64,000 bases of DNA, taken from NCBI GenBank assembly GCA_947450115.1, contig CANFUE010000004.1:1-64000 (forward strand), written 5' to 3'. Below the pieces are notes generated by a model. It did not search any database, had not been told where the DNA came from, and saw only the letters and a program-made list of their open reading frames with translations. A program made the translations under genes and the position numbers. Each line of letters opens with the position of its first letter. The stretch's first letter is position 1. Below, in pieces: positions 6,111 to 12,604 of this stretch. Source of the DNA: Acidimicrobiaceae bacterium (lineage in GTDB: Bacteria > Actinomycetota > Acidimicrobiia > Acidimicrobiales > Ilumatobacteraceae).

Positions 6111-7235
6111 CTATGCGAGAACGACCAAATCATGCGAGACGAGGTTCATGGCCAGTGGGCCCTGGTCGGTTGCCACCACAATGTCTTCTAAACGCATGCC
6201 AAATCGACCCGGAATGTAGATGCCCGGCTCAATGCTAAATGCGTGCCCAGCAAGCAATGCTTCGGTATTGCCCGCCACGATGTATGGGTCTTCATGGGCT
6301 TCCATGCCAATTCCGTGGCCGGTGCGATGTACGAAATACTCACCGAAGCCAGCTTCAGTAATGACGCGCCGAGCAGCTTCATCGACCGATTCACAGGTTG
6401 CACCCACTTGGGCCGAAGCCACTGAAGCAGCTTGTGCTTCTTGCAACACTGCATATGCTTCCAAAATTTCTTGTGACGGCGTACCTAGATGCACACAACG
6501 CGTGATGTCGCTGCAGTAGTCGGCCATGGTTCCACCAAAATCGCACAACACAATTTCACCATGACGAATCACTCGTGCTCCTGGGTGATGATGTGGGCTT
6601 GCAGCATTCTCTCCCGATGCAACAATGGCGAAGTTCACTACATCGTGGCCCTCTTCTAAAAGTCGCGCAGAAATATCGGCCGACACTTGCGCTTCAGTGC
6701 GACCAATTAAGGGAATAAGACCCGCGTGCAACTGCGTAGCTACGCGGTCGGCAGCCGCACCCGCGCGTTGCAGTGCTTCAATTTCACTGAGCGTTTTTAC
6801 TTTGCGCAAAGGCCCCACAACATCAACAGCGCGCGAGTAGTGCGCAGATGGCGCAAAGGCAAGTAGTTCTACTAAAAAGCGCGCCCACATTTGGTCGCCG
6901 ACCGACACGGTGCGTGCACCCTTTGTGAGTTGTGCCACCAATGCCACTGGGTTGTCGGTTTCGTTCCATGCAGCCAGTGTGAAAACGGTGGGGTGCAATG
7001 CAACACGCGGTGCTTCCAAACGAGGGATAACCAAAGTGGCAAGACCCTCTTGCGGCACCACCAACATGGTGAGGCGTTCGAGTGGCATGGCGTGGTAACC
7101 CGTGAGATACGGCAGGTCGTGCCCAACAGACAACAGCAGCGCATCGATATTTTGCGCCTTCATCTCTTTTTGTACGCGAGCAACACGCTCTTCGTAAATA
7201 CGTGTTGGCAAAGTGTGAGATTCGCGAGAGTTCAT
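6111..7235 (-). CDS. M24 family aminopeptidase (Xaa-Pro peptidase-like)
   Basis: VLCDFGGTMADYCSDITRCVHLG, HRTGHGIGMEAHEDPYIV, FSIEPGIYIPGRFGMRLEDIVVAT. Confidence 0.93.
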   Translation of the reverse strand: MNSRESHTLPTRIYEERVARVQKEMKAQNIDALLLSVGHDLPYLTGYHAMPLERLTMLVVPQEGLATLVIPRLEAPRVALHPTVFTLAAWNETDNPVALVAQLTKGARTVSVGDQMWARFLVELLAFAPSAHYSRAVDVVGPLRKVKTLSEIEALQRAGAAADRVATQLHAGLIPLIGRTEAQVSADISARLLEEGHDVVNFAIVASGENAASPHHHPGARVIRHGEIVLCDFGGTMADYCSDITRCVHLGTPSQEILEAYAVLQEAQAASVASAQVGATCESVDEAARRVITEAGFGEYFVHRTGHGIGMEAHEDPYIVAGNTEALLAGHAFSIEPGIYIPGRFGMRLEDIVVATDQGPLAMNLVSHDLVVLA

Positions 7236-8083
7236 CGCACCAGTGTCCCGGCTTGGTATTCCTCAAAGGCTTGAACAATTTCTGCTTGCGTGTTCATGAC
7301 GAAAGGGCCGTAGCGAGCAACCGGCTCATTGAGTGGCTCACCACCGAGCAACAAAACACTGGCACCATTTTTGCTGCTCACGCGCACTTCACCTGCAGTG
7401 CGCTCCAACACCACCATTTGGCCATCAACAGCTGACTCACCGTTGACTTCTACTTCCCCACCAAACACATGCACCAATGCAGTGTGACCTTCTTCAGGGG
7501 CCCACACCACTTGGTCGCCTGCAGCAAGTTCGATATGCGCATAGGTCACTGGGCTTGTTGTGGCAACCTTGCCGCGCACACCTGCCACTTCGCCGGCAAC
7601 AACTTTCATCACACCACCATTGGCAAGAGTGTGCGCCACAATTTCTTCGGCGTCGAAACCTTGATAACGCGGAGCAATCATTTTCTTTGCTGCAGGAAGA
7701 TTCACCCACAGCTGAAAACCATGCATTTTGCCACCCAACTTCAACATTGATGCTGGTGGTAATTCGCTATGCACCACACCCGACCCCGCGGTCATCCATT
7801 GCACGCCACCTGGCGTGATGGTTCCGACCCCACCCGATGAGTCACGATGTTCCATGGCGCCATGCAACAGGTATGTGACTGTTTCAAAGCCGCGGTGCGG
7901 GTGCTCTGGGGCTCCTACTGCTTCACCTGGGCCGTATTCCACTGGTCCCATTTCATCGAGCAACAAAAACGGATCAATATGGTCGAGTGACGCGGTAGGA
8001 AATGGCCGACGAACAACAAAGCCACCGCCTTCCACTGTGCGATGTGCTTGAACTACTCCGGCAATTGCTCTCATGACACTCAC
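7232..8083 (-). CDS. Pirin family protein
   Basis: DHIDPFLLLDEMGPVEYGPGEAVGAPEHPHRGFETVTYLLHGAMEHRDSSGGVGTITPGGVQWMTAGSGVVHSE is the pirin N-domain. ATGA overlaps with both neighbours. Confidence 0.95.
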   Translation of the reverse strand: MSVMRAIAGVVQAHRTVEGGGFVVRRPFPTASLDHIDPFLLLDEMGPVEYGPGEAVGAPEHPHRGFETVTYLLHGAMEHRDSSGGVGTITPGGVQWMTAGSGVVHSELPPASMLKLGGKMHGFQLWVNLPAAKKMIAPRYQGFDAEEIVAHTLANGGVMKVVAGEVAGVRGKVATTSPVTYAHIELAAGDQVVWAPEEGHTALVHVFGGEVEVNGESAVDGQMVVLERTAGEVRVSSKNGASVLLLGGEPLNEPVARYGPFVMNTQAEIVQAFEEYQAGTLVR

Positions 8084-9777
8084 TTATGTGCTGGTTGGGG
8101 TTTGCGAGTTAAAGAAACCGCAGTATCGATACTTTTTTGTTCGGCTTCTTCTGCCGATTGGCGAGCGTGATAGCTGGAACGAGTAAGAGGGCTCGATTCC
8201 ACATGACTAATGCCTAATGCTTCGCCAAATTTTTTCAAGTGTTCAAACTCTGCAGGCGCTACCCAACGTGCAACAGGCAGGTGATGTGTGGTGGGACGCA
8301 AGTATTGGCCAATGGTGACGATGTCGACACCCACACCAGCAAGGTCGACCAGAGTTCCCTCGGCTTCTTCAAGAGTTTCACCCATTCCCATAATGAGACC
8401 CGACTTTGCTGTGAGATCAGCAGCCTTGGCACGTGCGAGCACCGACAAAGAGCGTGCATAGCCGGCGCTCGGGCGCACCGCACGCTGCAACCGTGCCACC
8501 GTTTCGATGTTGTGGTTCAGAACGTCGGGCTTGACGGCAAGCAAAATGTCGAGAGCATCGGTTCCCTTCACATCGGAAATGAGAGTTTCAATACGCGTCA
8601 GTGGCGATACTTTGCGAATTGCAGTAACACATTGCGCTACGTGCAACATGCCGCCATCGGCTAAATCGTCGCGTGCCACCATGGTGAGCACTGCATGCAA
8701 GAGACCCATACGTTGAATGGCCTCTGCAACACGGTCGGGTTCATCACTCGCAGGAATTTCTGGCTTTTGAGTATCGACCAAACAAAAGCCACAAGCGCGG
8801 GTGCAACGTTCACCGAGCACCATGAACGTTGCTGTGCGATCAGACCAGCATTCCGACAAGTTGGGGCAACCTGCTTCTTCACACACGGTGACAAGACCCA
8901 GATCGCGTACCACTTTTTTTGTTTCCATCACTTCTTCAGTGAGGCGCACTTTCGGGCGCAACCAATCGGGTTTACGTTCTTCAATTTTGAGGCCGTCGCC
9001 CACGCCTGCCTGAGCTAAACGCGAGATGAGTCGCACAGGTTCGCCTGCGCCTTCACCACGCGAGAACGCAGATAGATCTTCTGGGCGGTGATACCACGCA
9101 ACGTCTTGACGGGCAGTTTGCCCATCGGCGAAGGAAAGAGCTACGTGACGCGCCACCACTTCAGATACTTCTTGTAGCGACGATTCAATTCCTTCTTCAC
9201 GTAGCGAAGTGACCGGGTATTCAGCAATGCCACACGGAACAATGTGTTCGCGCATGTAAGTGAGATCGGTTTCCACATTGACTGCGAATCCATGCATGGT
9301 GCGGCCGCGACTGAGGCGCACACCAATGGCACAGATTTTTCGTGGCGCATTCGCTGCAACGCCTACCCACACACCGGGGTAACCAGCAAGACGACCCACG
9401 TCGCTCAGGCCTAATTCAGTGAGCGAGTCGATGAGCAGTTGCTCAACACGAAACACGTAGTCGCTGGTGTCGGCGGGCCCTGCATTGCCACCATGTTTTG
9501 GTTGCAAATTGAGAATGGGGTAACCCACCAATTGGCCAGGGCCGTGATACGTAATGTCGCCACCACGATTGACCTTGACAAAGTCGGCGCCTACTTCACT
9601 CGGCACGCATTTCAAGTTTTTGTTGAGGTCGGCACTTGGCCCATAGGTAAAGACGTGCGGGTGCTCGAGCAGCAACAGATGTTGTTCACGAGAGTGCTCA
9701 AAGAGTGAACGTTGCACTGCAAATGCTTCGCGATAAGGAACTTTTCCTAGCCAACGAACATGCAATGGTGATGTCAT
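8080..9777 (-). CDS. lipB-lipA: LipB-LipA fusion: octanoyltransferase (N-term) + lipoyl synthase (C-term)
   Basis: Single 565 aa frame. LipB motifs RGGDITYHGPGQ, GYPGVWV, KICAIGVRLSRG, HGFAVNV, IVPCGI. LipA motifs CEEAGCPNLSEC, CTRACGFC and terminal RSSYHA. Confidence 0.95.
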   Translation of the reverse strand: MTSPLHVRWLGKVPYREAFAVQRSLFEHSREQHLLLLEHPHVFTYGPSADLNKNLKCVPSEVGADFVKVNRGGDITYHGPGQLVGYPILNLQPKHGGNAGPADTSDYVFRVEQLLIDSLTELGLSDVGRLAGYPGVWVGVAANAPRKICAIGVRLSRGRTMHGFAVNVETDLTYMREHIVPCGIAEYPVTSLREEGIESSLQEVSEVVARHVALSFADGQTARQDVAWYHRPEDLSAFSRGEGAGEPVRLISRLAQAGVGDGLKIEERKPDWLRPKVRLTEEVMETKKVVRDLGLVTVCEEAGCPNLSECWSDRTATFMVLGERCTRACGFCLVDTQKPEIPASDEPDRVAEAIQRMGLLHAVLTMVARDDLADGGMLHVAQCVTAIRKVSPLTRIETLISDVKGTDALDILLAVKPDVLNHNIETVARLQRAVRPSAGYARSLSVLARAKAADLTAKSGLIMGMGETLEEAEGTLVDLAGVGVDIVTIGQYLRPTTHHLPVARWVAPAEFEHLKKFGEALGISHVESSPLTRSSYHARQSAEEAEQKSIDTAVSLTRKPQPAHK

Positions 9778-9791
9778 GATGAAGCGCTGAA

Positions 9792-11150
9792 TTACAGCTC
9801 TGCAGACCAGTCGCGGGTTTCAAGAATTTCTTTTGCACGCGAGAGGAAGCCAGCTGCGTATGCACCGTCGAAAGCGCGGTGATCCCAGCTCATTGCCAGC
9901 TTGCCCACCGGATGAATAGCAATACTTTCGCCACCATCTGGCAAATTCACCACCACTGGCTTACGCACAATGGCATCGGTAGAAATAATGCCAACTTGTG
10001 GTTGGTTAATAACGGCCATGGTGAGAACTGAACCTGCTGAACCATTGTTTGACAGGGTGAATGTTCCACCTTGAATTTCATCGGGTGACAACTTGCGTGC
10101 CTTTGCACGTGCGCCAAGATCGCTAATTTCACGAGCCAAAGCACGCAAACGCTTTGATTCGGCATCACGTACTACCGGCACCAACAGACCCTGGTAATCG
10201 AGGTCTACTGCAATGCCAAGGTCGACATATTGGTGAACAACGAGTTCATTGCCATCGAGTGAAGCATTGAGATGCGGGAACTCAACAAGAGCATCAACAA
10301 CTGCGCGTGAGATGAAAGGAAGATACGTGAGGCTGAAGCCTTCTGTTTTCTTCCATTCATTTTTTACACGTGAACGCACAACGTCGACATTTGCGTAGTC
10401 AACTTCAACCACGCTGAAGGTATGTGGGCTCACTGCCTTCGACATAATCATGTGCTCACCGGTGAGCTTGCGAATTTTCGACAACTTGATGCGCTTCTCA
10501 CGCTCGTTGCTGTCGCCAGCAGGTGCAGCTTTTGCCACAGCAGCAGGCTTTGCCGCAGCAGGTGCTGGAGCTGGCGCAGGAGCAGGAGCAGCGGCTGGCG
10601 CTGGAGCAGCAGCTGGGGCCGACTTGCCGGCTTGAGCATCGATGAGTGCCAACACGTCTTCACGTGTGATGCGCCCACCAGGTCCTGTACCCGCAATTTT
10701 TGCTGCATCGAGATTGTTTTCTGAAATGAGACGACGCACGACTGGCGACAACAATGGCGCATCGCCGGCACTGGGGGCAGCAGCAACCACAACCGTTGGT
10801 GCAGGAGCGGGTGCAGGCGCTGGAGCTGGGGCAGGTGCGGGTGCTGGCGCTGGTGCTGGAGCAGCAGCAGGCTCAGGTGTTGGTGCTGCAACAGGGGCTG
10901 GCGCAGGTGCGGCACCGGCATCGCCCACAACGGCAATGACTGCTCCAACAGGAACAGTGTCGCCTTCTTTTGCACGCACTTCTGTAAGAACACCCGATAC
11001 AGGCGAAGGGACTTCAGTATCGACCTTGTCGGTGGATACTTCGAAAAGTGGTTCATCGGCAGCAACGGCATCGCCCACTTTTTTGAACCACTTCGTAATG
11101 GTTCCTTCTGTCACTGTTTCGCCAAGTTGTGGAAGCTTCACTTCAGCCAT
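9792..11150 (-). CDS. sucB: 2-oxo acid dehydrogenase E2 (dihydrolipoamide acyltransferase), single lipoyl domain with long Ala-Pro linkers
   Basis: N-terminal lipoyl domain FEVSTDKVDTEVPSPVSG, peripheral-subunit-binding domain SPVVRRLISENNLDAAKIAGTGPGGRITREDV, catalytic HPVGKLAMSWDHRAFDGAYAAGFL. Pyruvate versus 2-oxoglutarate specificity not resolvable by eye. Confidence 0.93.
   Translation of the reverse strand: MAEVKLPQLGETVTEGTITKWFKKVGDAVAADEPLFEVSTDKVDTEVPSPVSGVLTEVRAKEGDTVPVGAVIAVVGDAGAAPAPAPVAAPTPEPAAAPAPAPAPAPAPAPAPAPAPAPTVVVAAAPSAGDAPLLSPVVRRLISENNLDAAKIAGTGPGGRITREDVLALIDAQAGKSAPAAAPAPAAAPAPAPAPAPAAAKPAAVAKAAPAGDSNEREKRIKLSKIRKLTGEHMIMSKAVSPHTFSVVEVDYANVDVVRSRVKNEWKKTEGFSLTYLPFISRAVVDALVEFPHLNASLDGNELVVHQYVDLGIAVDLDYQGLLVPVVRDAESKRLRALAREISDLGARAKARKLSPDEIQGGTFTLSNNGSAGSVLTMAVINQPQVGIISTDAIVRKPVVVNLPDGGESIAIHPVGKLAMSWDHRAFDGAYAAGFLSRAKEILETRDWSAEL
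10521..10637. repeat. Low-complexity tract encoding the second Ala-Pro linker of E2
   Basis: AGKSAPAAAPAPAAAPAPAPAPAPAAAKPAAVAKAAPAG. Confidence 0.85.
10779..10916. repeat. Low-complexity tract encoding the first Ala-Pro linker of E2
   Basis: Protein segment AGAAPAPAPVAAPTPEPAAAPAPAPAPAPAPAPAPAPAPAPTVVVAAAP; GC-rich near-repetitive hexamers on DNA. Confidence 0.85.
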
Positions 11151-11203: not shown

Positions 11204-12604
11204 TTACGCGTTAATGCTACGCCCGGTCATGGAGAGCATCGTTTCACCAAACAATTCACTCAAACTTGGGTGAGGTTGGATGAACTCGGCGACTTCTGCC
11301 ACCGTTGCTTCCCAGTTGACGGCCAAGTAACCACCAGAGAGTTGCTCGGTGACCCATGGGCCAACCATCTGCACACCAAGAACCTGACCAGCAGTTCCGT
11401 CAGCATTCTTTTTAGCAATTACTTTCACGAGCCCGTCGGTGTCGCCAATAATCATGGCGCGACTGTTGGCGCGGAACTGGTGCTTACCTACAACTACGTC
11501 GTAGCCAGCTGCTTTTGCACTGTCTTCACTATGGCCAGCCCAAGCAACTTCAGGGTGACAATAAATTGCCCACGGCACACGGTCGTAGTTCACTGGCGCA
11601 ACAGGCTCGCCAAGAATGCGCTTCACCGCAAGAATTGCTTCTGCGTAGGCAACGTGTGCGAGTTGTGGCGTATTGATGATGTCGCCTACCGCATACACAC
11701 CAGGTTCAGCGGTGGTGCAGTACTCGTCGACTTCAATGAAGCCACGCTCGCTGAGTTTGACGGCAGTTCCTTGTAGGCCGAGTAGTTCAGCAGATGGACG
11801 ACGTCCAACTGACACCACAACTGCATCGACTTCAAGAGTTTCACCTTCTCCGAAGGAAACAACGGTTCCACCAGAACCATTGAGCGCGTGACCCTTGACA
11901 GCAACACCAGTTTTGATGTCGATGTTCTTTTTCTTAAAGCTCTTCACCACAACATTGGCAAGGTCGGCATCGAGACCAGGAAGAATTTTTGGCAAGCCCT
12001 CAAGAATGGTGACGGTGCTGCCCAAATCGGCGAATGTTGAAGCAAATTCACAACCAATGGCTCCACCACCAATAACGGCAACGCGTGCAGGCAAAGTACT
12101 GAGCATCAATACTTCATCTGAAGTCATGATGGGGCCGCCAACTTCGAAACCGGGAATGGTGCGCGGAACTGAGCCTGCAGCAAGGATGACATTTTTTCCT
12201 TGTACCTGCTGTGTGCTTCCATCGGCTGCAGTAACGGTGACTGTCTTGTTTGCGCCAAGTGAACCAACGCCCAAGAGGTAGGTCACTTTTTTCGATTTGG
12301 TTAAACCAGTAAGACCTTTCACCAAACCATCAACAATTTTCTGCTTACGAGCTTGAGTAATAGAAAAGTCGACACCGTTTTGAGTGGAGTTCACACCGAA
12401 CTCTGCAGAATGCAAAACGTGGCGGTTGACCGCTGCTGTTTCTAAGAATGCTTTTGCGGGAATACACCCACGGTTCAAGCATGTTCCGCCGATGGTGTCT
12501 TTTTCCACCAGCGCCACCGACAAACCTGCCGACGCCCCATAGAACGCCGCGGCGTATCCGCCGGGTCCACCACCAATTACAACAAGGTCATATGTTTCAG
12601 CCAT
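11204..12604 (-). CDS. lpdA: Dihydrolipoyl dehydrogenase (E3)
   Basis: YDLVVIGGGPGGYAAAFYGASAGLSVALVEKDTIGGTCLNRGCIPAKAFLETA; C-terminal HPSLSE active-site region. Confidence 0.97.
   Translation of the reverse strand: MAETYDLVVIGGGPGGYAAAFYGASAGLSVALVEKDTIGGTCLNRGCIPAKAFLETAAVNRHVLHSAEFGVNSTQNGVDFSITQARKQKIVDGLVKGLTGLTKSKKVTYLLGVGSLGANKTVTVTAADGSTQQVQGKNVILAAGSVPRTIPGFEVGGPIMTSDEVLMLSTLPARVAVIGGGAIGCEFASTFADLGSTVTILEGLPKILPGLDADLANVVVKSFKKKNIDIKTGVAVKGHALNGSGGTVVSFGEGETLEVDAVVVSVGRRPSAELLGLQGTAVKLSERGFIEVDEYCTTAEPGVYAVGDIINTPQLAHVAYAEAILAVKRILGEPVAPVNYDRVPWAIYCHPEVAWAGHSEDSAKAAGYDVVVGKHQFRANSRAMIIGDTDGLVKVIAKKNADGTAGQVLGVQMVGPWVTEQLSGGYLAVNWEATVAEVAEFIQPHPSLSELFGETMLSMTGRSINA

Follow-up and report, generated by a model that had tools for sequence, protein, structure and literature searches.

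A LipB-LipA fusion in a single reading frame, predicted to be bifunctional and characteristic of the class Acidimicrobiia

Introduction

Octanoyltransferase (LipB) and lipoyl synthase (LipA) are normally separate proteins that act consecutively on the same carrier domain. Catalysis by Mycobacterium tuberculosis LipB depends on a Cys/Lys dyad, Cys176/Lys142 (PMC9307952). LipA requires a radical-SAM motif (Cx3Cx2C), an auxiliary-cluster motif (Cx4Cx5C) and the serine of a C-terminal RSSY motif, and each turnover sacrifices the auxiliary cluster (PMC12246082). In E. coli K-12 the lipA and lipB genes are separate, with ybeF between them, while in the other Actinomycetota, the Chloroflexota and the Bacteroidota that we sampled the two separate genes are often adjacent. 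The nearest fused architecture is that of NF053790 (LplA_LipA_fuse, bifunctional lipoate--protein ligase/lipoyl synthase), in which a ligase of the same superfamily as LipB stands N-terminal to LipA. This LplA-LipA fusion is the only one that NCBI models; we found no NCBI model for a LipB-LipA fusion. Our literature search likewise returned no described LipB-LipA fusion and nothing relevant on lipoyl synthase in Acidimicrobiia, and a study of lipoate ligase fusions (PMC10332631) mentions Acidimicrobiia nowhere in its text. UniProt automatic annotation may already list such fusion proteins.

Here we describe a gene, which we call lipBA, in a stretch of 64,000 nucleotides (the window) from an Acidimicrobiaceae bacterium. 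We believe, with a probability of roughly 0.88, that it encodes a bifunctional LipB-LipA enzyme, that it descends from a fusion with a single origin in Acidimicrobiia, that it carries out octanoylation followed by sulfur insertion, and that the fusion was kept most likely for the coupling of these steps.

Results and discussion

One frame with two complete enzymes

The lipBA gene lies on the minus strand at 8080..9777 and was identified by frame translation, Pfam, NCBIfam and alignment. Read from 9777 down to 8080 it is one frame with an ATG start, 565 codons, a TGA end and no internal stop, while the plus strand over the same interval is riddled with stops. The 565-aa product consists of a LipB domain (residues 1-216, 9130..9777), an inter-domain linker of about 46 residues (217-262, 8992..9129) and a LipA domain (263-548, 8134..8991), all on the minus strand.

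Pfam finds LplA-B_cat (PF21948) at residues 14-212 (E 5e-36), Radical_SAM at 320-476 (E 3e-14) and a partial match to LIAS_N. Both halves score above the cut-offs of equivalog models: for LipB, NF010925 (residues 2-217) gives 174 against a cut-off of 155 and TIGR00214 gives 133 against 84; for LipA, TIGR00510 (residues 265-547) gives 338 against 310. The closest solved structures are M. tuberculosis LipB for the N-terminal half (1w66, query residues 3-214) and M. tuberculosis LipA for the C-terminal half (5exi, query residues 259-546; see also 5exk). The N-terminal half thus shares with standalone LipB the fold, the Cys/Lys dyad, the RGG-HGPGQ loop and the equivalog score, but it is the first domain of a larger protein and is followed by a linker and LipA. 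The C-terminal half has the Cx3Cx2C, Cx4Cx5C and RSSY motifs and the score of a standalone LipA, but its N-terminus runs on from LipB. We considered membership of NF053790 and rejected it: the model's cut-off is 800 and the window protein scored 334, matching only the LipA part (profile positions 328-605). The N-terminal half of lipBA is LipB and not LplA, so the architecture is different. The stop-free frame, the equivalog scores and the solved relatives of each half bear out the claim of an earlier note on this DNA that LipB and LipA are fused in a single 565-aa frame.

We judged residue invariance in an alignment of 38 fused members of the class from 30 families. In the LipB half, the RGGDITYHGPGQ loop (residues 71-82, 9532..9567, minus strand) has R71, G72, G73, D74, T76, H78, G81 and Q82 invariant in 38/38. 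By alignment with 1w66, Lys147 (9337..9339, minus strand) corresponds to Lys142 of the M. tuberculosis enzyme and Cys182 (9232..9234, minus strand) to Cys176, the two residues of its dyad (PMC9307952), and both are present in all 38. In the LipA half, the auxiliary-cluster motif (Cys299/Cys304/Cys310, 8848..8883, minus strand) and the radical-SAM motif (Cys325/Cys329/Cys332, 8782..8805, minus strand), as defined in PMC12246082, are equally invariant. The window protein reads R533-S534-S535-Y536 at the RSSY motif that supplies the serine ligand of the auxiliary cluster (8170..8181, minus strand; PMC12246082), and the R and both S are the positions invariant in 38/38. All the LipB and LipA motifs quoted in the earlier note are found in the frame, and both active sites are intact. 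All the known catalytic and cluster-binding residues are thus present in the two halves. The predicted activities are transfer of octanoyl from acyl carrier protein to lipoyl domains by the LipB half, and insertion of two sulfurs into octanoyl-lysine by the LipA half.

The window protein and a distant member (L104, about 49% identity), both modelled with AlphaFold, had mean pLDDT of 88 and 87, respectively, and a pTM of 0.90 in both cases, with low confidence confined to the core of the linker (230-247 in the window protein) and the C-terminal tail. The modelled halves resemble the M. tuberculosis structures, with a TM to the target of 0.91-0.94 for LipA and 0.85 for LipB. The pTM suggests that the two domains are placed with some confidence, but pTM alone proves no interface.

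The linker and the reality of the join

The linker is highly variable: its length across the class is 25-171 aa and no column is invariant, yet short motifs recur over many families (DVAW..PxDLSxFSRG and RLxxAGV; in other families xAFTRGQGR..VDRLLASGTFSP). The DVAW part is predicted to form a strand with which LipB ends. Compared with three congeners, the changed linker codons are synonymous in 10/10, 9/9 and 23/25 cases, and in more distant comparisons, where about 70% of the linker is identical, the estimated dN/dS was still no higher than 0.16 whenever it was computable. Since codon changes there are nearly all synonymous, we take the linker to be a translated sequence, under purifying selection within the genus.

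These data bear directly on two ways in which the fusion could be less than it seems. The window's assembly has 66 contigs and is about 90% complete, so we considered whether misassembly or a frameshift had joined two genes artificially. However, the same unbroken frame crosses the junction at 8950-9130, which the earlier note singled out for checking, in independently assembled genomes of the window's genus, many independent assemblies and single-contig genomes (e.g. G023, G053, G043, G060) carry it, and the linker changes against congeners are of the kind expected of translated sequence; we therefore rejected an artefact, to which we give almost no weight. Somewhat more credible, though still improbable, is that one ORF in the DNA yields two proteins in the cell, either by an internal start at an in-frame GTG of the linker (codons 248 and 259) or by proteolysis of the linker, whose low predicted confidence would leave it open to protease cutting. 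Against this, the window's linker contains no ATG and just 9/38 relatives have any Met in the linker, so there is no conserved internal ATG start, and a LipA half with its own start would leave the continuous open frame unneeded. The fused protein remains our preferred reading.

Three MAG copies of lipBA (L027 from G200, L015 from G011, and L111) have frameshifts in the LipA half, away from the junction, which are probably sequencing errors.

Distribution of the fusion

Matches to lipBA were found in 284/296 genomes of the window's GTDB class (Acidimicrobiia), and also in 16/16 members of the class that were drawn evenly around another centre. The 12 class genomes with no match are about the number expected from genome incompleteness, and true loss may also contribute. 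Inspection of the frame covered the loci that we opened: both halves lie in one frame, LipB first, in 94 opened class loci (some of them duplicates) from at least 30 GTDB families, with identity among the class fusions down to 43%. The earlier note named two separate ORFs in relatives as a finding that would refute the fusion; within the class this objection fails, since nearly every opened locus has the same fusion and it turned up in all the major branches that we examined. The exceptions among the opened class loci are pieces at contig ends, the three frameshifted MAG copies, a lone LipB in one genome (G123) and an extra pair in another (G088).

In G123, which is 85% complete, the lone LipB (L186, G123:C15) sits among unrelated neighbours, including a cytochrome P450-like gene, and no LipA was found in the genome; a split, a loss or a binning error are all possible. 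G088 has, alongside the fusion, lipB and lipA as two separate genes that follow an E2 gene on a contig of 5 kb; the loci concerned are L187 (G088:C83) and L045. This pair branches outside the fused clade, and transfer or contamination is possible.

Outside the class we found the two enzymes as separate proteins. In other classes of Actinomycetota LipA has its own frame, and the matches that span both genes contain stops. There was no stop-free fusion among the listed matches of 213 matching Chloroflexota genomes (a phylum sampled around an Anaerolineae genome), nor in 297 genomes of the Bacteroidota group (sampled around a Balneolota genome), where all 13 spanning matches have stops. A search of Bacillota, run without a positive control, returned nothing at the strict threshold. 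A locus titled 'Acidobacteria' (L119) was considered as a case from outside the class and rejected, both because its GTDB class returns genomes of the window's class (with identical match coordinates) and because it nests within the fused clade in our trees. The fusion is characteristic of Acidimicrobiia against the sampled Actinomycetota, Chloroflexota and Bacteroidota group, which falls short of proof that it is exclusive to the class. Another locus (L087) has a misleading title as well, Acidimicrobium ferrooxidans DSM 10331, but groups with the window's family.

Origin of the fusion

We built separate trees for the LipA part and the LipB part from 59 fused and 25 separate proteins, with the window represented by a congener (L010); the trees were built by a quick method, carry no bootstraps and are weak in their deep branching. 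In both, fused and separate proteins are divided by one branch (SH-aLRT 87 for LipA and 95 for LipB), with a single change between the fused and separate states in each tree against a shuffled mean of about 22. Because a single branch sets all the fused proteins apart in either tree, we conclude that the fusion arose once, before the Acidimicrobiia radiated.

The separate adjacent pairs of other bacteria encode the same two enzymes, often in the same order and near E2, but as two polypeptides with a stop codon or a different frame between them. Unfused relatives in the phylum are often ordered E2-lipB-lipA or E2-TIGR01777-lipB-lipA, and because lipB and lipA so often neighbour each other after E2 there, the fusion probably came about when adjacent lipB and lipA lost the intervening stop. 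In some of the adjacent unfused pairs the two genes share a frame and only one stop codon separates them. We had considered such pairs in other phyla a strong 'pre-fusion' signal and downgraded it, given that most outgroups were picked via matches that join the genes in the same frame; among lipB-to-lipA neighbours picked by LipA alone (L175, L176, L178, L179, L183, L184), only 1/6 is in the same frame.

Gene neighbourhood

Immediately beside lipBA is a gene for an E2 acyltransferase with one lipoyl domain (9792..11150, minus strand; PF00364), the adjoining client. Its best NCBIfam match is TIGR02927 (SucB_Actino), just below the cut-off (419 against 423). Next to it is an E3 dihydrolipoyl dehydrogenase gene (11204..12604, minus strand), which scores 483 against a cut-off of 409 for TIGR01350 and is conserved upstream of E2. 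Along the coding strand E3 (12604-11204) comes first, then E2 (11150-9792) and, after a gap of 14 bases, lipBA. E2 adjoins lipBA in most class loci and the E3-E2-lipBA order is conserved across the class. The earlier note was right to place lipBA beside the E2 and E3 genes, but it called the gene upstream of them, and it is downstream. The next listed frame, for a pirin-like protein, overlaps lipBA by 4 bases, assuming that the GTG at 8083 is its start. In many families of the class lipBA is followed by a conserved neighbour, a gene for an M24 (Xaa-Pro-type) peptidase (in the window at 6111..7235, minus strand).

What the fusion may be for

In the mechanism that we propose, the LipB half would take octanoyl from acyl carrier protein onto Cys182, with Lys147 as partner, and would then transfer it to a lipoyl-domain lysine. 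Into the octanoyl-lysine so formed, the radical-SAM LipA half would insert two sulfurs taken from its own auxiliary Fe-S cluster. Most likely, the fusion was kept for coupling in one polypeptide, which would give a fixed 1:1 dosage and shared docking of the same client domain. The two activities, the production of a single stable polypeptide and any kinetic benefit of proximity are all inferred.

Octanoyl-E2, like any octanoyl-lipoyl domain, is a stable protein-bound intermediate, and because of this stability channelling is not chemically required. The gain may be one of dosage and proximity instead of true channelling, and since LipA loses its auxiliary cluster at each turnover, recharging the cluster, not the handover, may limit the rate. 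Channelling between the LipB and LipA sites is plausible. The stronger proposal, a class-defining bifunctional enzyme in which both sites share one scaffold and the LipB site passes the lipoyl domain straight to the LipA site, we consider rather doubtful. The linker, variable in length and modelled with low confidence, does not point to a fixed docking geometry.

A more serious competitor concerns only the benefit of the fusion and leaves the identity of the enzyme as it is: the fusion could be a neutral join of two independent domains on a flexible linker, with no channelling or cooperation, which was kept only because a gene translated as one unit is unlikely to be split again. We give this a little less than even odds. 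It fits a linker that is long, variable and of low confidence; lipB and lipA are adjacent in many relatives, some in frame with a single stop, so that the join is one mutation away; and diffusion between the separate enzymes is enough elsewhere. On the other hand, nearly all genomes of the class have kept the fusion while diverging deeply (down to 43% identity), no case of re-splitting is confirmed, the linker is under strong purifying selection within the genus, and the overall fold is predicted confidently (pTM 0.90) in two distant members. On balance we favor retention for the coupling of the two steps.

As natural evidence, lipBA indicates that LipB and LipA act successively on the same client and can be tied together, and it is a ready-made construct with which to ask whether octanoyl-E2 is handed over directly. 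If direct passing is true, lipBA would be a natural enzyme that physically couples octanoylation to sulfur insertion, and could be used as a trap for the transfer complex. Being one ancient event, the fusion is also a molecular marker of an entire class of actinobacteria that are abundant in the environment and mostly uncultured. Where annotation pipelines give one name per protein, they may report LipB or LipA alone, so that the pathway looks incomplete.

Other clients and lipoylation genes

The earlier note also described the locus as a self-contained lipoylation block, which overstates the case. The window's genome has one GcvH, encoded on contig C8, outside the lipBA block; a further lipoyl-domain client is encoded elsewhere too, as is an LplA-like protein. 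With E2 beside lipBA and GcvH and the free-standing lipoyl domain elsewhere, at least two clients, of which just one is local, presumably depend on lipBA.

The free-standing lipoyl-domain protein has 83 residues and an ETDKV motif (L168, G000:C1:65316-65528) and is apparently unattached to an E2; it is a possible lipoyl carrier. Two further matches of the lipoyl-domain type in the window's genome carry the biotin motifs EAMKM and ESMKM. The LplA-like protein is a standalone PF21948 protein of about 215 aa (L188, G000:C18:11266-11757), encoded near an MraZ-like gene, and weak PF21948 matches like it also occur in other genomes of the order.
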